From: Fibrobacter succinogenes
GTDB lineage: Bacteria > Fibrobacterota > Fibrobacteria > Fibrobacterales > Fibrobacteraceae
Assembly: GCA_902756345.1 (NCBI GenBank)
Contig: CACVQR010000001.1
Span: 62,001-126,000, forward strand
Reading direction: 5' to 3'
DNA length: 64,000 bases
The notes under the pieces were generated by a model. It saw only the letters and a program-made list of their open reading frames with translations. It did not search any database and was not told the origin of the DNA. The translations under genes were made by a program, and so were the position numbers. The first letter of the stretch is position 1. Every line of letters begins with the position of its first letter. This document shows, one piece after another, positions 7,731 to 44,680 of the stretch.

Positions 7731-10700
7731 TCACCTTTTCTCCACGGCTTCAATCTCCTCGGTATCGGTGATGCCATAGAGTTGATAGACGAGGGTGTTG
7801 ACTTGCGTTTCGAGGTCGGCGATTCGCGTTTGAATCGCTTCGGACGGTCCTTCGGCAGGCTCAGGAACCTGAGTTTTGTTGCTGTTCACCAATTCCTTTT
7901 TCAGGCGAATAATTTCGTCAGCGAGGGTGGCGAGTTTTTGCAGTAGTTCCGCATTGTCTAGGGGGATGCGGAGGTTTTCGAAGTAGGCTTTGCGGATTTC
8001 ACGAGTGCCGCCCATGAGTTCGGGGCAGTTGTACCATATCCAGAGTTTGACGAGGTTCGAATTGAATATGGCGAGGAGGGCTTTTAGTAGGTTATAGCCA
8101 CAGGGAGAGGAGATTCCCGCCTTCGCGGGAATGACATCGCTGGTTGTTTCTGCATTGGATTGCTTCGCTTCGCTCGCAATGACGTTTTCCGTTCCCTTTG
8201 GCAAATTCTGCGAATTGTCCTTTTCCGTAATGATAAAAGATTTGTCGTTGCCGAAAGAGCCGGTTTCGTCGTAGGTGAACGGGAATACCGATGTCATGTT
8301 CGGGTACATGATTTTCGGTTTGGCAAATTCTTCCAAATAGGCGCAATTACGCAAATTATATGGCGTATCGCCTTTGTCTCCACGTTTAATCAATTTATCT
8401 ATAAATTGGTCAAGATGCCTTTTGATTGCAGGGTATTCGTCTATGTTAATCGGCGCAATGTTCTTTTCTTTAATTCCGTTATGCGGATTGATTAGATACT
8501 GATCGCTTTCCGTTACCCATGCGTTAATATCTCGGCCACGAAGCAGGGGCTTTATGAGTTCTTCGCTCTTGGGGTCTTCGGCAATGAGTTTTTCTCTCGT
8601 CTTTCCGTCAATAAAGAATGCGTCGTTGAAGCCGGTTTTGATGCCGTAATTAATTGTAATCGGCATATCTTTCAGAGGCGTGCCGACGTTCATTTTCTGC
8701 AATACGGAATCGTGGAGTTTGTTGCGGATGCTCCATTCGCTTGCTCCGAAATTTTCTGTCGGGAACTCGAATGTCGCAGCCTTGACTTCTTTTTCAAATT
8801 CACCGTGATAGTTCTTGCTGTTCAGCGAGCACGCCAAAACAGGCATCTTGTCGCCGGACTTTTGCGATACGAATATGCACACGTAAATGGTCGCATCAGC
8901 AAAGAATTGGACATCGCCAAAATTGAGAATTTTCTTGAGTGAGGTCTGGCTCATGAATTGTCGCAGTTCCTTGCCGTAATCCACGAGCATCCACTTGTTC
9001 GGCATGATGAACGAGAAATATCCGTTCTTTTTCAGCAGGCTGTAGGCACGTTCCACAAAGAGGCAATAAAGGTCTGCGGACTTGTTGTAGCAACTGTAAT
9101 CCCGTTTGCTGTAAACGTCACTCATCTCGCCCATGCTCTGGAGTTGCACATACGGCGGGTTTCCGATGATGGCGTCGAAGCCTGTAAAGCGGCCTTCGTC
9201 GTCGAGGATTTCCGGGAATTCGAACATCCATTCGAGCGAATTGGAAAAGTTGATGGTATCGCCCGCCGTGCCCTTGTATTCCTCGAACATTTCAATCTGC
9301 CCGTCTTCAACCATTCGGCTCTTGAGCGACGCAATCTTGTGCCGGAGCATCATCTTGGAACTCTGCGACTTGCCAGTTTTGTATTCCTGCACAAGTTGTC
9401 TGTATTCAATAAGGCTATTCTTGAGGCTATCCCGTTTGCGGTCGGCTCGTTCATCACGAGTAAGATAGTCCGCAATCAAGCGCCCGTTCTGCACGGGGTA
9501 TTTGCTCAGCAGCGAATCGCCGACTTTGATATTGATGTCGATGTTCGGGAGGGTCTGAAGTTGTTTGTAGCCGCTTTCCTTGGTGTAGTAGGCGTTCTTC
9601 AAAAGTTCAATCCAAAGACGCAAACGGCAGATGTTCACGCTGTTGGGGTTCAGGTCAACGCCAAAAAGGCAATTCTCGATAATGCGGCGTTTTTCGTTGA
9701 ACAAAGCTTCTTGATACCGCTGGCTTTCTTCGTTGCCGGGCTTGTATTCAAACGGTTCGCCCTCGTCATCAACAACAGAAAGTTCATCGTTATCTACTTT
9801 CAAAATCAGGTCGCGGCGTTTGATGCGTTTGCCGTCCGCATCGCACAAAATGTTCAATTCCGATTTGATTGCAAGCAGGCGATTAAGGGCCGACACCAAG
9901 AAATGCCCAGAGCCCACGGCAACATCGGCAACGCGGATGTCATCTACAATTTGATTCGCTTCTGAAATATCTTCAATCTTGTCCGAGACATCTTCCAAAT
10001 TTTCGCATTTCCAGGACTTTTTCTCGTTGAACTTCTGCACCACCGTCCGTTCCAGCACATCGCGAGCCATGTAGTCGGTGATGAACCCCGGTGTAAAGAA
10101 ACTGCCGTCTTTGTAGCCGTTGATTTTTTCGAAAATGAGTCCGAGAACCGACGCGTTGATGAGCGTCTTGCTCGTAGAGGTCACGCCGCCTTGGGCATCG
10201 CTTGCAAAGTTGTACGCATCGAGGAACTTGAAGATGTAATCCAGATTCGGGAGCGTGCCTTTTGCGCGTTTGCCGCGTTCGTCCTTCAGAACAGTCTTGT
10301 TGAAAATTTCAAGATCATTGTCCAAGAGATTCCCGATCATCAGTTTCGATTCATCTTCCGTGGGTTCGAAAAGAGAGCTGTTCAGATAGGGAACATTCGG
10401 ATATTTAGCTTTTACATCTGCGTCACGGTCATCAACCTTTTTCCCAAGAACTTTAAAAAAGAAAATATTGAGTTCATCAAAACCCTTAATTTTGTCCGAA
10501 CTCATGAACCGGTAGGATGCATCACCCTTTTGATACATGAGGATCTGAGATTCTACCAACTTAAGAAATAATAGGCGATTTATCCATGTGATACAGAGGC
10601 GAAGTGCGGTTTCTTCACATTTATTTTCATCGGGTTCCTTGATTTCTAACTGATAAATAGCACTTTCAAGGAGGCTTCCCTTGTCGCGATTTGCGGGCTT

Positions 10701-11636
10701 CTTTCGTTGAATGACTTTCTTTCCGCCTTTGTCTTCTTTTACTTCTTCGAGGCCGATGATGTGCAAAAGTTCCGCATAAAAGTTGCGGTCGAGACTGTTG
10801 CTGTCGTTTGCGAAAGGCTTCGCGAGGAGGGTTTCCGGGGAGAGGAATTTGTAAAGAGGGAGGAGCGGTGTGGAATGTGAAATGTGGGATGTAGAATATG
10901 CATTGTCATTCTGGAAGCCTGCAGGACTGATAGAATCCATGGACCCTATCGCCTTCGGCTCCAGGGTGACATGTGACTTTTTTAGTTCTGGGGCAAGCGT
11001 CCGCATTGCATCTGCAAGGCTGAAATGCACGACGTTGATATCGCAGGAGGCGAGGAAGTCGTCAATGGCGGGTTTCGCGATTTCGTTGTAGAAATCGGAT
11101 GTCTTATTGCCGCTCATCTGATTCGCCTTGAATTTCAAGAACTGATCGTATATCGGTTTCGTCTTGTTCCCAAAATAGCGAATAAAGTCTTTTACGTCAA
11201 AGAAGTACCATTCGTCAAAATTCGTGATGGCGAGCCACTTGATTTCGTGATTGCCCGAATGCACGTATTCCAGCATAAAGTAATAGACGAGTTCCTGCAA
11301 CGATTTTACGTTCGGATGCTCCGCCGAAAACATTTCTGCCGCATTCGTCGGCGACTTCGCTTCGATAATCACTGCCGGCTTTGCACTTGCCGTGTTCCCG
11401 TTAAAAATTGCAAGGTCTATCGGGCGGTTGACCTGCACCGAATAATCGGGTTCAAAAATCTTGCGTAAAAAGTTCCAGATTTCGCCCTTGTGGTATTCTT
11501 CGTCCTGTGCTACATTCCGCTTGCAGTAAAGATTCTTGAGCGAAAGCTTGAAATCCTCCATCTTTTCGACGGGAACAGGGAGCTTGAAAAACGCGGAATT
11601 GACGGACTTTTTAGGCGAAATGAACTTGATTGACAT
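7731..11636 (-). CDS. Type IIG restriction-modification enzyme (Eco57I-like N6-adenine methylase with nuclease domain)
   Basis: About 1301 residues using the ATG at 11636 (MSIKFISPKK); the open frame extends 78 codons further up but that part is repeat-derived sequence. N terminus: a PD-(D/E)XK-like nuclease core RPIDLAIF then VIIEAKSPT at about 73-97. Middle: SAM-binding motif AVGSGHF near 570 and catalytic NPPY near 827, the signature of N6-adenine methylases. C terminus: a TaqI/Eco57I-like specificity region and a terminal coiled coil. One polypeptide should therefore both methylate and cleave DNA. It heads the minus-strand operon, 27 bp before the MBL gene. Oddity: three different dispersed repeats are present inside the frame (around residues 221-244, 1150-1176 and 1251-1262), adding short peptides such as VTLEPKAIGS, VIPAKAGIS and VPEPAEGPSEA without breaking it. 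Confidence 0.85.
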   Translation of the reverse strand: MSIKFISPKKSVNSAFFKLPVPVEKMEDFKLSLKNLYCKRNVAQDEEYHKGEIWNFLRKIFEPDYSVQVNRPIDLAIFNGNTASAKPAVIIEAKSPTNAAEMFSAEHPNVKSLQELVYYFMLEYVHSGNHEIKWLAITNFDEWYFFDVKDFIRYFGNKTKPIYDQFLKFKANQMSGNKTSDFYNEIAKPAIDDFLASCDINVVHFSLADAMRTLAPELKKSHVTLEPKAIGSMDSISPAGFQNDNAYSTSHISHSTPLLPLYKFLSPETLLAKPFANDSNSLDRNFYAELLHIIGLEEVKEDKGGKKVIQRKKPANRDKGSLLESAIYQLEIKEPDENKCEETALRLCITWINRLLFLKLVESQILMYQKGDASYRFMSSDKIKGFDELNIFFFKVLGKKVDDRDADVKAKYPNVPYLNSSLFEPTEDESKLMIGNLLDNDLEIFNKTVLKDERGKRAKGTLPNLDYIFKFLDAYNFASDAQGGVTSTSKTLINASVLGLIFEKINGYKDGSFFTPGFITDYMARDVLERTVVQKFNEKKSWKCENLEDVSDKIEDISEANQIVDDIRVADVAVGSGHFLVSALNRLLAIKSELNILCDADGKRIKRRDLILKVDNDELSVVDDEGEPFEYKPGNEESQRYQEALFNEKRRIIENCLFGVDLNPNSVNICRLRLWIELLKNAYYTKESGYKQLQTLPNIDINIKVGDSLLSKYPVQNGRLIADYLTRDERADRKRDSLKNSLIEYRQLVQEYKTGKSQSSKMMLRHKIASLKSRMVEDGQIEMFEEYKGTAGDTINFSNSLEWMFEFPEILDDEGRFTGFDAIIGNPPYVQLQSMGEMSDVYSKRDYSCYNKSADLYCLFVERAYSLLKKNGYFSFIMPNKWMLVDYGKELRQFMSQTSLKKILNFGDVQFFADATIYVCIFVSQKSGDKMPVLACSLNSKNYHGEFEKEVKAATFEFPTENFGASEWSIRNKLHDSVLQKMNVGTPLKDMPITINYGIKTGFNDAFFIDGKTREKLIAEDPKSEELIKPLLRGRDINAWVTESDQYLINPHNGIKEKNIAPINIDEYPAIKRHLDQFIDKLIKRGDKGDTPYNLRNCAYLEEFAKPKIMYPNMTSVFPFTYDETGSFGNDKSFIITEKDNSQNLPKGTENVIASEAKQSNAETTSDVIPAKAGISSPCGYNLLKALLAIFNSNLVKLWIWYNCPELMGGTREIRKAYFENLRIPLDNAELLQKLATLADEIIRLKKELVNSNKTQVPEPAEGPSEAIQTRIADLETQVNTLVYQLYGITDTEEIEAVEKR
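7851..7881 (-). repeat. PEPAEG-type dispersed repeat inside the RM gene
   Basis: GGTTCCTGAGCCTGCCGAAG on the minus strand, translated in frame as VPEPAEG. This short palindromic sequence (CCTGAGCCTGCCGAAGG) is of the kind scattered through intergenic regions of several Bacteroidota-related genomes; here it lies in the region encoding the C-terminal linker. Confidence 0.6.
8109..8184 (-). repeat. Composite REP-like repeat inside the RM gene
   Basis: Two adjacent palindromic units: GTCATTGCGAGCGAAGCGAA (8165-8184) and GTCATTCCCGCGAAGGCGGG (8116-8135). Both belong to repeat classes that are widespread in bacterial intergenic DNA and translate to peptides such as ASEAKQS and VIPAKAGIS. Here they sit in frame in the C-terminal specificity region of the RM enzyme. 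Confidence 0.7.
10904..10972 (-). repeat. Imperfect inverted-repeat element inside the RM gene
   Basis: Bounded by TGTCATTCTGGA and TCCAGGGTGACA, nearly inverted copies of each other, with GACCCTATCGCCTTCGGCTC near the right end. The same right half (about 35 bp) recurs at 11771-11806 upstream of the gene. It is read in frame and contributes the peptide HVTLEPKAIGS between the nuclease and methylase domains. Confidence 0.7.
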
Positions 11637-11860
11637 ACAACGGAAATATACCTTTTTAGAAGACAAAAGATGGCAATCCCATAGTTTTAAGGGCAAATCC
11701 CGTTTTTGTGAGGCATTTCCCGTCGGGGCGTTGCGGGGTGTCCCCGCTAGAAGGGGTAGCGAAAGACTTGCCCTGGACCCTATCGCCTTTGGCTCCAGGG
11801 TGACATAAGGGCAAGGCTGTAGCGAGGGGGAAACCTCCCCCTCAAAAAAAACGCGCGGAC
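11637..11860. other. Intergenic region upstream of the RM operon
   Basis: No gene of its own. It holds a half-copy of the dispersed repeat (CCCTGGACCC to CCAGGGTGACAT at 11771-11806) and a G/C-rich dyad at 11824-11843 (GAGGGGG...CCCCCTC). A TATATT hexamer (minus strand) lies within 20 bp of the RM start, too close for a normal leader, so the RM promoter is not confidently located. Confidence 0.5.
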
Positions 11861-11863
11861 CTA

Positions 11864-11892
11864 TTGACAAACTGGATTTTTGAATCTATATT
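11864..11892 (+). promoter_or_regulatory. Sigma70-type promoter of the ORF6N gene
   Basis: TTGACA at 11864-11869, a 17-bp spacer, and TATATT at 11887-11892, about 60 bp upstream of the ATG at 11952. The -35 box and spacing match the consensus, and the -10 differs at one base. Confidence 0.75.
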
Positions 11893-11951
11893 TAGTGCAC
11901 AAGTGTGTAGTCTTTGGTATTTTTTCCGCTTGTATGCCAGAGGAGTTGACG

Positions 11952-12567
11952 ATGAAGAAAGATGTTGCGGCCAGTGCGGCCGAGGCTGTTGCGCCGAAAA
12001 AGCCCGAATTTTCCCTGATAGACGAGGATTTGCTCAAGTCACGGATATATACCATCCGCGGGGTAAAGGTCATGCTCGATGCCGATTTGGCGGAAATTTA
12101 CGGGTATTCGACCAAGGCTTTCAATCAGCAGGTCAAGAATAATATCGAGCGTTTTGCGGAGGATTTCCGTTTCCAACTGTCCAAAAAGGAAGTTGAAGAA
12201 TTGCGGTCAAAAAATTTGACCGCAATTACCAGTGTAAATGACGCAGAAATTTTGCGGTGCAAAAATTGCACCACAAACATTAGCACAATGAGCCGCTCCA
12301 ATCCCTTCGTTTTTACAGAACAGGGCATTTATATGCTTATGACTGTGTTGAAAGGCGATTTGGCAGTACAACAGAGTATGGCCCTCATCCGTCTTTTCAA
12401 GCAGATGAAGGACTACATTGCGGCAGAGAACGCGCCGGATGTTTCTGCGGGGATGGTCGCCTTGGCGACGCAACGATGCCGGCAACAAGATCACGACCAT
12501 CATGCAACTGGAGGATATCGCCGGGTATCGCACACTGTTCGAAAGGTTGTTGCGAGAGGGGGAATAA
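11952..12567 (+). pseudogene. ORF6N-domain (KilA-N-type) DNA-binding protein, frameshifted near its end
   Basis: ATG at 11952 is preceded by AGGAG at 11940-11944 and the promoter at 11864-11892. Residues about 20-115 form an ORF6N domain: IYTIRGVKVMLDADLAEIYG, then a long conserved stretch ending MSRSNPFVFTEQGIYML. This domain occurs in phage and mobile-element regulators and binds DNA. After about 12470 the frame changes quality: the original frame runs on into codons antisense to the DUF1349 gene, whereas another frame gives RNDAGNKITTIMQLEDIAGY and a stop at 12565-12567. That shorter ending looks like a genuine C terminus, so one indel near 12,470 has probably damaged the gene. The DNA-binding part is intact and may still work. 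Confidence 0.65.
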
Positions 12568-12613
12568 GGGCGCGCATCCATACACTACCCAAGGGGGCAT
12601 TTTCGAATTACGT

Positions 12614-13219
12614 TTACGCATCCGGTTGTTGGCCGTCGTGCGCTTTCCATGCGCATTCCGTCACCTGCATATCCGTAAATCGAGCCGTGAAGCTGGAATT
12701 TTCCGGGCTGCATGCATATATGCCAAACCGAATTTTTCCGGCTCCTTCGAGCATGTGGCAAATCCGCATTTGAGAATACTGCACCCCGTCTCGAGAACAT
12801 TCTATGCAGTAGTCATCTTCGCGCCTGCTGAGCCTATACCACATGGATTTTACATCTGCAGGAATCGCAGTCGTCGCCCAGTCTGAATACCCGCGGTTTG
12901 TCACGACGGAACCCAGGTGCTGGAATTTTTCATTCTCATATTCGACCGACGCCTTGAGCCAATTTTCCGAATCCAGATACAGCGCCACCCCGCACTGGTC
13001 GAAGCGATGACGACTTTCGGAAAAATCGGTTTTGGCGACAAAGGAAAAGAACTTTTCTTCTGCTTCCATCTGCAGAACCGGAGCGTTATCGTTTCTGAAA
13101 TGATAGTAGGTCCTTTGCCAAAGGTCCGTATGCGGGGCGGTCACAATTTCGACGCATTCTTGATTGATGCTGTAGTTCCGGGGTTCCCTGACCCATTTCA
13201 TTTTAGAAATATCAAACAT
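12614..13219 (-). CDS. DUF1349 family protein (concanavalin-like fold)
   Basis: 201 residues, no signal peptide. The pattern fits DUF1349: WVREP near the N terminus, the TDLWQRTYYHF segment, FDQCGVALYLDSENWLKASVEYE in the middle and a MWYRLSRREDDYCIE strand pair. The family has a lectin/glucanase-like beta sandwich and is sometimes labelled regulation of enolase 1, with no firm biochemical role. It is convergent with the ORF6N gene. The start could also be the MKW codon at 13201. No partner gene is evident, so it is probably monocistronic. Confidence 0.75.
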   Translation of the reverse strand: MFDISKMKWVREPRNYSINQECVEIVTAPHTDLWQRTYYHFRNDNAPVLQMEAEEKFFSFVAKTDFSESRHRFDQCGVALYLDSENWLKASVEYENEKFQHLGSVVTNRGYSDWATTAIPADVKSMWYRLSRREDDYCIECSRDGVQYSQMRICHMLEGAGKIRFGIYACSPENSSFTARFTDMQVTECAWKAHDGQQPDA

Positions 13220-15110: not shown

Positions 15111-16076
15111 TTACCCGACCAAATAATACCCACCGTTCTTCCGGGCTCCCCTAAATTCAATCTTACCCGATTCGGTCAAAGTTTGTAAATGGCGCTGCGT
15201 TGTTCGCAGGGACAGGTTGAGCATCGAGGCCAATGCAGGTGTGTTGATTCCGGGGTTCACCCGGATTTCGGATAGGATTCGTTCGGAGAGGTTTTCACCT
15301 GTTTCGCGGTGGCGTACGGCACCTTTTTTCGGTTTAAGGTTGTTCCGCAGCAGTCGCAACAGGTCCGCCTGCGTCGCAACTACGCAATCGGCGATAAAGC
15401 CCACAAAAACCTTGTCATCGATGTGCGCCGTCTCTAGGGCCGACACGTATTCCATGCGCCTAATGGCAGGAATCAGCGCGATGGTGTACTCGCCGCGAAG
15501 CAGCGCAAGGTTCATCAGCAATCGCGCCACGCGTCCATTGCCATCGACAAAGGGATGAATGAACACGAACTTTTTGTGAACCTGCGCGGCGAATTCCACG
15601 GGATTCATCCTGGATTCGTTCTTGTTGAACCACGCGACGAACTTCTTCATCTCGGCTCGAATTTTCAAGTGCGGCGTAACGGGGTAACGGCTCCCGCTAA
15701 TTACGACGGGCACCTTGCGATAAATACCGGCCTTGTCCGCATCTATCTGCTGGTAAAACAGCCGATGCAGCATCAGTATATCCGATTCTTCGAGAGTCTT
15801 GTTTTTTGCGAGTTTGTGAATATGATCGTACGCCTTGGCATGCCCAACGGCTTCGTACACGTCTCGCAGAGGTTTCCCGTTGATGGTGAGCCCATCCTCG
15901 ATGACGACCTTGGTCTCGGTTTCGGTGAGGCTATTGCCTTCGAGGGCGTTACTCGTGTAAGTGAGTCCCACGCGGTAGAATTCCCGCAGGGACTTGAGCG
16001 TATCCTTGGGAATCGGGCGGAACGACAGAAGTTCCTTATTGTTATCGGCAGCAATTTTCAAATACGGTGAAATCAT
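15111..16076 (-). CDS. Fic family protein with own inhibitory motif and C-terminal winged helix
   Basis: 321 residues. The Fic core motif HPFVDGNGRVAR is intact near residue 173, so transfer of AMP (or another nucleotide part) to a protein hydroxyl is expected. The N-terminal SNALEGN (about 42-48) fits the inhibitory helix [S/T]xxxE[G/N], giving an autoinhibited class II-type Fic. The C terminus (about 255-321, ILSEIRVNPGINTPALASML then TTQRHLQTL) is a winged-helix DNA-binding domain, so the protein can probably regulate its own gene. The promoter region carries four copies of a 12-bp repeat immediately upstream. No antitoxin-like partner is next to it. Target protein unknown. Confidence 0.9.
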   Translation of the reverse strand: MISPYLKIAADNNKELLSFRPIPKDTLKSLREFYRVGLTYTSNALEGNSLTETETKVVIEDGLTINGKPLRDVYEAVGHAKAYDHIHKLAKNKTLEESDILMLHRLFYQQIDADKAGIYRKVPVVISGSRYPVTPHLKIRAEMKKFVAWFNKNESRMNPVEFAAQVHKKFVFIHPFVDGNGRVARLLMNLALLRGEYTIALIPAIRRMEYVSALETAHIDDKVFVGFIADCVVATQADLLRLLRNNLKPKKGAVRHRETGENLSERILSEIRVNPGINTPALASMLNLSLRTTQRHLQTLTESGKIEFRGARKNGGYYLVG

Positions 16077-16110
16077 CGAAAAACCTCGATTTATACACCT
16101 AATATATAAT

Positions 16111-16197
16111 TTTATACCGCCATAATCAACAGTTTAAACCGCCATACAGCAATTTATACCGCCATTTTTAGCACAATTTACAGATTTATACCGCCAA
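16111..16197. promoter_or_regulatory. Iterated operator-like repeats upstream of fic
   Basis: TTTATACCGCCA(T) occurs at 16111, 16153 and 16185, with a one-base variant TTTAAACCGCCAT at 16133. Copies are spaced 22, 20 and 32 bp, all in the same orientation, ending about 35 bp before the fic start. Spacing near two helical turns and proximity to a gene encoding a winged helix suggest an autoregulatory operator array. Confidence 0.7.
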
Positions 16198-16240
16198 AAT
16201 GAATTTTTAGAGACTCTTCCGTTTCTTGAATACGACGATT

Positions 16241-16507
16241 TCAGCGCCAGCGCTTGAGCGTCGGGAAGTACTTGCGTAGCTCCGCCTTATATTCTTCGCG
16301 AGTAAGGCTCTTGCCGGTGTTCTTGTTGAATTCATCGACGAACTGCGAGCAGAATTCGACCATCTGTTCCATGTTGAAGTCGCCCGTGAATGCGCCGTCC
16401 TTGTAGCAGTAGATGCAGTATTCTTCATTCTTGCTGCCGTCGGCGTTAGTGCCCAAAATTTCCGGCGTGAGCGGCATTCCGCAGCTTTGACAGAATTTCA
16501 TTTCCAT
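16241..16507 (-). CDS. Small zinc-ribbon protein (zinc ribbon, 88 aa)
   Basis: 88 residues. The N terminus MKFCQSCGMPL and a second pair YCIYCYKDG give a four-cysteine zinc ribbon (residues 5-36), followed by a helical region ending LRKYFPTLKRW. This is a known family of putative zinc-ribbon proteins of unknown role, often near GyrI-like or transcription-regulator genes. A GGAGAA Shine-Dalgarno lies just upstream of the start. It follows the GyrI-like gene by 11 bp, so they are probably co-transcribed. A second, nearly identical copy is fused to gspE remnants at 21770-22032, which shows local duplication. Confidence 0.8.
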   Translation of the reverse strand: MEMKFCQSCGMPLTPEILGTNADGSKNEEYCIYCYKDGAFTGDFNMEQMVEFCSQFVDEFNKNTGKSLTREEYKAELRKYFPTLKRWR

Positions 16508-20633: not shown

Positions 20634-21545
20634 CTAGTCGTCGGCGGCGGAGGCGCCCACGGCCTGTTCGAGCGTGGTATGACCATCCAGAGCCTTCTGG
20701 ATGCCGTCCATGCGCAGCGTAATCATGCCGCATTCCTTCATGGCGGCGCGCTTGATTACGTCGCCCGAAGAACGCTTGATGATGAGGTTACGCACCGTCT
20801 CGTTCGGCACCAGGAACTCGTAAATACCGCAACGGCCCTTGTAACCGGAGCCGTCGCACTTTTCGCAACCGCGGCCGTGGTAGAACTGCTTTTCCGGAGA
20901 CAGGTGGAGTTCGCCGCGCATAGCCTGCGAAATTTCCACCGGTTCCTTGCAGTACTTACAGATGCGGCGCACAAGGCGCTGGGCGAGCACGCCCTTGATA
21001 GCGGTAGACACAAGGAAGGGTTCCAGGCCCATTTCGAGCAAACGCGGGAAGGCACCGGCAGCATCGTTTGTATGCAACGTACTGAAGACCAAGTGACCCG
21101 TCAAGGCAGCTTCGATAGCCATGGACGATGTCTCCTAGTCACGCATTTCACCGATCATGATGACGTCCGGGTCCTGACGGAGCAGGGCGCGGATGCCCGC
21201 GGCGAAGGTAAAGCCCGCCGCATTGTTAATTTGCCCCTGGTTCACGCCGTCAATATTCAATTCGACCGGGTCTTCCATGGTAGAAATATTGATCGTACTG
21301 TCAAGAATTTCACGAATAGAGGCGTAAAGCGTGGTAGACTTACCGGAACCCGTCGGACCGGTCACGAGCACAATGCCGTTAGGAGCGTTAATGGCGTCGA
21401 TGAACTGTTTGAGGACGCGCGGGTCGAAACCCATGTCCTTCAGCGGGAACTGACCCGAGTTCGGGTCCAAGATACGCATAACGATTTTTTTCGCAAACAC
21501 CGCGTTTACGGAGCGAAATCGGAAAAGAGCTCACACGAAGGTCGA
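20634..21545 (-). pseudogene. GspE/PilB-type secretion ATPase remnant, split by a nonsense codon
   Basis: Two adjacent frames on one line carry the C-terminal half of a type II secretion/type IV pilus ATPase. Bases 21135-21500 encode IVMRILDPNSGQFPLKDMGF, Walker A TGPTGSGKSTT and ISTMEDPVEL, ending in GEMRD then TAG; translation resumes in the same frame with [20 protein letters not shown] (20634-21122), the normal continuation, including four zinc-ligand-like cysteines (CKYC, CEKC) and a proper C terminus. Intact relatives read RD-L/x-ET here, so a single substitution made the TAG. Upstream, a frameshift near a seven-A tract (about 21486) separates it from DLRVSSFP, and the N-terminal half is missing. 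No other secretion genes are nearby. Confidence 0.8.
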
Positions 21546-22032
21546 CTTCGGAGCCCAGCTTTTCGACCTGATTGCCCCAGTAGCTTGCGTTGTCGTCTAA
21601 AAGCTTGACGCTGTTGCCGTTGATCTTGTATTCCTGATTGATGAACGAGCCCTGCAGAACAAAGAGGTTGTCGATGGTCGGCATGTCCTTGATGCCCAGC
21701 GCATTGACCTCTTCGATATACTTCTGCTTCATGGGCGAATTTGCATGCGGGAGCTCGGCGTCACTCGATTTCCAGCGTTTGAGCGTCGGGAAATACTTGC
21801 GGAGTTCAACCTTGTATTCTTCGCGGGTCAGGCTCTTGCCCGTGTTCTTGTTGAACTCGTCCACGAACTTGGAATAGAATTCTATCATCTGATCCATCGT
21901 GAAGTCACCGGTAAAGGCGCCATCCTTGTAGCAGTAGATGCAGTATTCGTCGCTCTTGCTGCCGTCGGCGTTCGTACCGAGGACTTCCGGCGAAAGCGGC
22001 ATCCCACAGTTCTGACAAAATTTCATTTCCAT
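21546..22032 (-). CDS. Second zinc-ribbon copy fused to unrecognised and gspE-derived sequence
   Basis: From the ATG at 22032, preceded by the same GGAGAACTT as the first copy, residues 1-88 duplicate the zinc-ribbon protein at 16241-16507 (about nine in ten residues identical, cysteines kept: CQNCGMPL and YCIYCYKDG). Instead of stopping after LKRW, it continues in frame as SSDAELPHANSPMKQKYIEE and a segment around NGNSVKLLDDNASYWGNQ that I do not recognise, then SEVDLRVSSFP from a GspE-type ATPase, and runs to a stop at 21388 in the wrong frame for the ATPase. The junction at about 21768 marks a recombination point. The zinc ribbon may still be made, with an extended tail. Confidence 0.6.
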
Positions 22033-22051
22033 AAGTTCTCCTTTTTTGCTT

Positions 22052-22304
22052 GGCTCTGTCAAGCCTTTCCGTATTGCTGCGTTAAAAATCTTTATTGGCT
22101 GTAAATTGGCTGCAGTTTCTTGGCGGGCTCTGTCAAGCCTGGCCGTATGTTTGCGAACCTGCTACGGTTATGCTGCGGCGGTCAAAATGTCCAAAATAGC
22201 CTAAAAACAGCATTTCCGAGGTGAATTTGCAGGTTTCGATGGGCTGACGGATTGGGAAAGTTTTGCTAACCCAGGGTTGGCGTATAAAATGACTTGACAG
22301 AGCC
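22052..22304. mobile_element. MITE-like element with 12-bp terminal inverted repeats
   Basis: GGCTCTGTCAAG at 22052-22063 and its exact inverse CTTGACAGAGCC at 22293-22304 bound a 253-bp non-coding segment, with an extra direct copy at 22126-22137. The first 85 bp recur at 17507-17592. No transposase is inside, which fits a miniature element mobilised in trans by an insertion sequence with such ends; the family was not identified. Confidence 0.6.
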
Positions 22305-44338: not shown

Positions 44339-44634
44339 ATACAGGCTAAATGAGCCACAAAGAGACATTTAACCTGTACAAATCCACGATTTCAAACAAA
44401 TTCACGCTCTTTTTCCCGACGGCGTACAGGCCACGCAAGCGCAAACCACTCATTTAACCTGTACGCCAAGGCATTTTTAAGACATTTCATCCATTCTCCT
44501 TGCAATTTGTACAGGCCAAACAAACATTTTTCTTCTCTTTGGCCTGTACGCAGCCTCCTTTTTTACAACAACACCCCTCCCTAAGCGCGATTTGTACAGG
44601 CTAAAGAAACATTTCACATCTCTTTGGCCTGTAC
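44339..44634. repeat. Array of four imperfect palindromes with about 85-bp period
   Basis: The 377-bp intergenic gap contains no gene but four hairpin units of about 41 bp: 44339-44380, 44423-44464, 44509-44549 and 44594-44634. Arms are GTACAGGC(C/T)AAA and its inverse TTTGGCCTGTAC (or ATTTAACCTGTAC in units 1-2), with a 17-22-bp loop. Unit starts are 84, 86 and 85 bp apart; spacers of about 43 bp differ. Spacer lengths and hairpin structure do not fit CRISPR. Confidence 0.8.
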
Positions 44635-44680
44635 AACCACCATTTCGCCTTCATTTTACCACCATTTCGCCCTCTAGAGC

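Follow-up and report, generated by a model that had tools for sequence, protein, structure and literature searches.

The DNA analyzed here is a stretch of 64,000 nucleotides of Fibrobacter succinogenes (GenBank assembly GCA_902756345.1, contig CACVQR010000001.1, positions 62,001 to 126,000), referred to as a whole as the window, in which a gene encoding a Fic protein with a C-terminal winged helix-turn-helix (wHTH) domain is preceded by an array of direct repeats (Table 1). Pfam recognizes both the Fic domain (E 1.9e-21) and the C-terminal domain (HTH_24, E 1.3e-09), the latter confirming the C-terminal winged helix of the initial annotation. The structure model presents this domain as helices plus a two-stranded wing, preceded by a linker of low confidence at residues 251-260. 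The best match in the PDB is FICD (E 4.2e-35). The catalytic motif HPFx[DE]GN[GK]R is found as HPFVDGNGR at residues 174-182, with most positions invariant among 29 homologs. Class II Fic proteins carry an inhibitory motif that follows the rule [ST]xxxE[GN]; the stretch S42-N-A-L-E46-G47, located before the Fic core, fits this rule, with E46 invariant and S42 nearly so among the 29 homologs. Judged from these motifs the protein is class-II-like, with a predicted N-terminal inhibitory helix.

Four copies of TGGCGGTWTAAA, labeled O1 to O4 and read in gene sense on the minus strand, lie 35 to 120 bases 5' of the Fic ATG. They had been placed earlier at 16111, 16133 (with one mismatch), 16153 and 16185 in one orientation, and these positions were confirmed exactly on the plus strand; the accompanying statement that they stand about two helical turns apart holds for the first two start-to-start spacings, of 22 and 20 bases, but not for the third, of 32 bases, which corresponds to about three turns. 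Over the whole window the motif, at up to 2 mismatches, has 5 matches against 5.36 expected, a count that alone is not unusual, and 4 of these 5 are held within 86 bases. Positions 16077-16240 contain 14 pairs of near-identical 12-mers, against a mean of 0.15 and a maximum of 6 in 2000 first-order Markov simulations of the same segment, and of 1065 stretches of the window compared by such pairs, the 120 bases at 16081 come out first. The 120 bases upstream of the gene (entry L001 of the survey presented below) hold 13 near-identical pairs, the linker of the same gene none. Within the 3.36-Mb genome, exact TTWAWACCGCCA occurs 5 times, namely as the four array copies and as a lone copy inside a long open reading frame (ORF) resembling an outer-membrane receptor, and O1-O4 form the sole cluster of the motif.

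Table 1. Coordinates in the window of the Fic gene, its encoded domains, the predicted promoter and the putative operator copies.
Feature	Position	Strand	Basis and remarks
Fic gene, 321 aa	15111..16076 (ATG at 16076-16074)	-	ORF; predicted start
C-terminal winged helix (wHTH), residues 261-321	15114..15296	-	HTH_24; structure model; proposed array reader
Linker, residues 247-260	15297..15338	-	no array detected; without the repeats found in relatives' linkers
Fic domain, residues 95-192, with HPFVDGNGR	15501..15794	-	Pfam PF02661
S-N-A-L-E-G, residues 42-47, candidate inhibitory motif	15936..15953	-	sequence; homolog conservation
Possible degenerate fifth copy, TAGGTGTATAAAT	16089..16101	-	start 21 bases from O1; tentative by-eye reading, no statistic
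Predicted -10 box, TATATT, 17-base spacer	16101..16106	-	consensus scan; kept in orthologs
Operator copy O1 (putative), TGGCGGTATAAA	16111..16122	-	within the -35/-10 spacer of the predicted promoter; conserved in orthologs
Predicted -35 box, TTGATT	16124..16129	-	consensus scan; TTG kept in orthologs
Operator copy O2 (putative), TGGCGGTTTAAA	16133..16144	-	one mismatch; conserved in orthologs
Operator copy O3 (putative), TGGCGGTATAAA	16153..16164	-	conserved in orthologs
Operator copy O4 (putative), TGGCGGTATAAA	16185..16196	-	most variable of the four copies among orthologs

The consensus scan for promoters yields TTGATT-17-TATATT (16129-16101), whose spacer is exactly filled by O1 and whose -35 box is abutted by O2. 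Taken alone the scan is weak, with 3 sites returned against a chance expectation of 1.7, but the boxes are conserved in the orthologs. Because of this location of O1 and O2, the array would act as a repressor site, and because the direct repeats are phased, several molecules would bind it together. In the proposed mechanism, the 12-base direct repeats, all facing the same side of the helix at intervals of about two or three turns, would be occupied by Fic molecules, and the bound protein would cover the promoter and keep fic transcription low. Such repression might in addition be coupled to AMP transfer, as suggested in the initial annotation.

Concerning conservation, a Fic homolog is found in 32 of the 111 genomes of the family Fibrobacteraceae. 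The search for the repeat before Fic homologs, which had been proposed as a check, recovered the array in 9 of 9 close copies, that is, the window and eight orthologs of at least about 92% identity with upstream DNA, one of which (L010) keeps one copy less well, and also before a Bacteroidales Fic gene. Across the nine upstream regions, invariant columns number 39 of 48 in the motif and 18 of 38 between the copies; the stretch preceding the array has 2 of 44, and that from the array to the ATG 22 of 34. The Bacteroidales Fic (L053/L073, about 60% identity) shows three copies with the 20/22 spacing of the window and different spacers, its array ending about 12 bases before the ATG. Among relatives of about 75% identity, L019 combines two copies upstream with two copies in frame in the linker preceding the wHTH (GGC GGT GTA AAT, coding for GGVN), L020 has motif copies confined to the linker, and the partial genes L021 and L029 likewise have copies in the linker.

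A DNA scan for pairs of motif copies in about 85,000 genomes returned 30 loci, 10 of them before Fic genes, 9 in the linker of wHTH genes of AlbA_2, LytTR or Fic type (L041, L046, L049, L051, L054, L055, L063, L065 and L068), 2 beside a wHTH ORF (L057 and L058) and 9 unclear or due to chance, such as L050, which lies inside a SecA-like ORF, and L040, a simple 13-base repeat. On its Thermoguttaceae contig, L057 presents 14 motif copies, mostly with a 13-base period, beside a small wHTH ORF. In viral contigs the exact TGGCGGTDTAAA pair was found in 2 contigs versus 1 for the reversed control, which gives no sign of wide use there. Occurrence of the repeat at unrelated loci had been named in the initial annotation as an observation that would speak against a Fic operator; the repeat does occur with unrelated enzyme domains, but those loci share the same wHTH family. 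Since this first scan relied on a DNA pattern, the search was redone with a protein profile of the wHTH (A1, built from 13 sequences) in the phylum of the window and the phyla of a Bacteroides, a Clostridiales and a Zhongshania genome, and 120 further stretches were added, nearly all around wHTH genes. The profile matches the window Fic with E 2.9e-26, by construction, as that sequence is one of the 13.

Of 253 distinct wHTH genes, the resulting survey set retains the 192 that are full-length, have upstream DNA and were not recovered by the DNA pattern, grouped at 60% wHTH identity into 119 clusters that are not fully independent. According to home-made profiles, ten assignments of which were spot-checked with Pfam, the N-terminal part is AlbA_2-type in 84 clusters, Fic-type in 27 and other in 8. 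The linker window was defined as the 120 bases ending just inside the wHTH code, and the upstream window as the 120 bases before the start codon. A 12-mer array is present in the linker code of 92 of the 119 clusters, compared with 1.8% of control windows from the same genes, and upstream of the start codon in 12 of the 119. Upstream arrays are found in 8 of the 27 clusters without a linker array versus 4 of the 92 with one (Fisher p 7e-4), with a strict cut-off, L080 having in fact copies in both places. Independent upstream arrays are those of L249 and L280 (GTCGGTGTAAAT), L264, L086 (a LytTR protein, GGCGGATAAA), L080 (AGTAGGGAGAAA) and L165 (GTAGCAAATAAA). It appears from these sequences that in a minority of array-bearing wHTH genes the array stands at the promoter instead. 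The same wHTH with arrays is joined to Fic, AlbA_2 and LytTR proteins, a combination that would also arise if the arrays were recombination sites shuffling the wHTH module between enzymes, without a regulatory role. This explanation leaves both the promoter arrays, 1 kb from the wHTH code, and the either/or placement unaccounted for, and we give it hardly any credence.

Two further members of the family are worth describing. The genome of the window carries a second wHTH gene (G000:C12:32958-33195; L148, L334) with the variant TGGCGGATTAAA in its linker code, read as GGLN/GGLS repeats. At L194 two members of the family stand in tandem: immediately behind an AlbA_2-type gene, whose linker array consists of GTCGGTGTAAAT, comes a Fic gene that has a related wHTH.

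As a control for the association with the wHTH, 78 of 99 Fic ORFs were grouped into 33 clusters. All 8 of the 8 clusters with the wHTH have an array, located in the linker in 4 of them and upstream in the other 4, compared with 1 of 19 classed as lacking the wHTH (p 4e-6); the 6 'maybe' clusters, kept outside the Fisher test, have 0 arrays. One of the 19, L022, is a rearranged gene that carries the wHTH, and with its reassignment the counts become 8 of 9 and 1 of 18, for which a hand calculation gives a p of about 3.5e-5. The exception, L399, has a different C-terminal HTH and its own upstream array, a 12-base ACGCACAAGATA tandem, which suggests that other HTH families perhaps also have their own arrays.

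Two motif classes, set after looking, were distinguished among the linker arrays, TAAA with 45 clusters and GAAA with 38, leaving 9 others, and the association of class with wHTH residues was evaluated for 83 of the 92 clusters (the 9 others being omitted) over 60 wHTH columns with 500 permutations. The strongest association is that of wing column 53 (T/N versus G), whose value was not reached in 500 permutations. It is accompanied by recognition-helix column 31 (T versus A/G), with A/G in 24 of 38 GAAA clusters and 2 of 45 TAAA clusters (p 5e-9; 0 of 500 permutations). Restricting the analysis to AlbA_2 genes, column 53 is reached in 0 of 500 permutations and column 31 in 6 of 500. Part of this association is phylogenetic, because in linker-array genes motif and wHTH adjoin and are inherited together. 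A limited check apart from this is offered by the upstream arrays, which lie about 1 kb away from the DNA coding for the wHTH: six, with T at column 31, are TAA(A)-type, the one with A is GAAA-type, and L165 has Y. Comparison shows the array, in terms of sequence, to be a conserved DNA element that travels with the wHTH family and whose class matches residues of the recognition helix and the wing.

These data also bear on whether the array could be an operator read by another regulator, the Fic wHTH having other targets. Such a regulator would account for the wHTH clusters in which neither array is detectable (19 of 119), and the separate array of L399 would fit it as well. Array presence, however, tracks the wHTH, motif class tracks the DNA-contacting wHTH positions, and the genome holds no second cluster of the motif, so that we regard this alternative as unlikely.

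The commoner placement, inside the gene, raises the matter of what the linker repeats are kept for. A simple answer would be that they are flexible protein linkers grown by slippage, and that the array at the fic promoter arose by separate coincidence or derives from one of them by decay; tandem growth within the gene is plausible, given a period of 12 in 74 of the 92 clusters. Against it, the same 12-mers recur between clusters well beyond what the encoded peptides require. With 100 synonymous recodings of the linkers by each gene's own codon use as null, 38 pairs of clusters have the same exact repeated 12-mer in the same frame, versus a mean of 1.3 (maximum 4), and 6 pairs have it in a different frame, versus 0.02 (maximum 1), as for AAAGTTCGGTGA, which encodes FGEK in L257 and SSVK in L323 and L241. 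Six clusters have a main period of 11 bases, passing through all three frames. Codon choice, evaluated on 80 representatives with pattern-found loci included, points in the same direction: of the V/I/L codons that precede N, 110 of 133 finish with A in the linkers, versus 62 of 231 elsewhere in these genes, and, taking one V/I/L-N/K site per gene, the third base is A in 37 of 65 against about 19 expected. The promoter array is, moreover, conserved in noncoding DNA across phyla. Slippage is therefore a very improbable explanation, and the linker repeats appear, from this pattern of sequence constraint, to be kept as DNA and not as a peptide feature.

It could also be considered that the repeats act in RNA, in leader as well as coding RNA, instead of in double-stranded DNA, since the arrays examined in wHTH genes are all in gene sense and those of L249 and L280 lie directly before the start codon. 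The spacings, however, fit the DNA helix, being mainly 11-12, 20-22 and 32-33, with no 15. In the linkers 12 is the commonest spacing (74 of 92 clusters), then come 21 (11), 11 (8) and 33 (3), and 15 is never found; the upstream arrays, free of any frame, show 11, 12, 20, 21, 22 and 32, and degenerate copies leave wider gaps in them, of 24 and 48. In addition, the copies in the window are located at and upstream of the predicted -10 box, and the co-varying positions belong to a DNA-binding fold. An action in RNA is accordingly very unlikely, if somewhat less so than slippage. Two other roles for the repeats were considered and discarded. An internal start for a separate wHTH protein does not agree with L019, L020, L029 and L046, where inspection by eye reveals no in-frame start between array and wHTH, and mini-ORFs of the form ATG NNN NNN TAA, which the TAAA-class motif can generate, are not kept by the GAAA class or by copies such as GTATTT (L249).

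Taken together, the array before fic is quite probably a multi-site operator of the protein's own wHTH, repressing its own gene. We infer binding of the array by the wHTH itself, repression as its outcome and joint occupancy by several molecules. Self-repression by Fic through iterated sites, as put forward in the initial annotation, is, by comparison only, the best-supported reading, on the grounds of the conservation before orthologs, the contrast of 8 of 8 with 1 of 19 Fic clusters, the co-variation of class and residues and the position of O1 in the promoter spacer. Several observations weigh on the other side. Besides the 19 clusters with neither array, 4 have both. The class-residue association is partly phylogenetic, with both motif classes defined after looking, and the fic promoter is a consensus match only. 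The nearest-wHTH neighbour test, which gives 12 of 12 matches with L001, L073 and L080, is informative for 3 of the 8 upstream arrays, those with a close neighbour. Finally, these genes do not in general have a substring in common between linker and promoter: a promoter copy of the linker motif was rejected as a rule because the longest shared substring is mostly at background in 85 genes. Those of L019 (18 bases) and L080 (15 bases) stand out, and the long ones of L042, L135, L113 and L097 stem from overlap of the two regions or mis-called starts.

For the family as a whole, self-regulation through the array may extend to the in-gene placement, where the linker-coding DNA would also act as a binding site of the encoded protein, candidate actions being a roadblock, looping to the promoter or tethering. 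We lean, by a modest degree, towards the view that this widespread Fic, Schlafen-AlbA_2 and LytTR family of enzymes and regulators carries its operator as code, the DNA of the linker being the binding array of the domain that follows, or has it at the promoter instead. The linker peptide would then be a by-product, any peptide and any frame being tolerated while the encoded protein reads the DNA, and the protein would mark its gene, or block it, at a site internal to the gene; it might also stay attached to the locus for as long as the DNA there persists.

Among known proteins, the class II-like FICD/HYPE and BT_2513 (3CUC) have the Fic core and the inhibitory-helix motif in common with the window Fic and are among its best Foldseek matches; to our knowledge, FICD has no C-terminal wHTH. 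A match to the PADLOC SoFic profile likewise extends along most of the window Fic (E 9.4e-27), and the SoFic-type structure 3EQX is deposited in the PDB as a Fic transcriptional regulator, but by sequence and fold the window protein is less similar to this type than to FICD, and we know of no operator array reported for SoFic. Proteins of the SLFN_AlbA_2 / HATPase_c_4 / HTH kind (COG2865) have a C-terminal wHTH of the same family and the array in the linker code; they differ from the window Fic in the enzyme domain and in the array being usually inside the gene. A functional precedent is CccR of Yersinia pseudotuberculosis, a Fic protein described as repressing its own gene by binding its own promoter (PMC9755527), and the window protein likewise combines a Fic domain with a C-terminal DNA-binding domain (Pfam Fic, HTH_24). 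The CccR site, to which a dimer binds, is a pair of 10-bp inverted repeats separated by 26 bp (PMC9755527), whereas the window presents at least four direct repeats at spacings of 20, 22 and 32, and relatives have the array inside the gene. Direct repeats are known from NanR of E. coli, a wing-type repressor reported to bind cooperatively to the tandem direct repeats of its (GGTATA)3 operator (PMC8012715); these repeats are short, tight and dimer-bound, NanR controls sialic acid metabolism, and the available part of the report describes no array in its own coding sequence (PMC8012715).

No report of arrays before or inside Fic or AlbA_2 genes was found in a literature search that covered few subscription journals. 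Regulators that repress themselves are known, and so are operators located within genes; the apparent novelty, as far as sequence comparison goes, is linker-coding DNA kept as the binding array of the following domain, in several phyla and with three kinds of N-terminal domain. If this holds, the four-residue linker repeats of many Fic and AlbA_2 proteins (GGIN, GVNE, SSEK, FGEK) would be DNA sites and not peptide features, the target site of an uncharacterised regulator could be read from its own gene, and a link between Fic and Schlafen-type enzymes and the control of their genes would become testable at the bench.

With regard to the surroundings of fic, no antitoxin gene of the kind expected in a two-gene Fic/Doc toxin-antitoxin module was found beside it by Pfam, the preceding gene being Zn_ribbon_2 and the following one having no Pfam match. 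A gene for an Eco57I-like methylase (7731-11870, minus strand) and an ORF6N gene (11880-12773, plus strand) lie 3-8 kb from the Fic gene and, together with the SoFic-profile match, point to a possible defence neighbourhood. The Zn_ribbon_2-type gene is present in two copies 5 kb apart, at 16241-16507 and 21388-22062 (minus strand), and is also found directly before fic in several orthologous loci. The second-ranking direct repeat of the window, at 44600-44670, is located between two ORFs and has 7 near-identical 12-mer pairs, with ACCACCATTTCGCC present twice; Fic is the only gene in the window with a wHTH of the array-bearing family.
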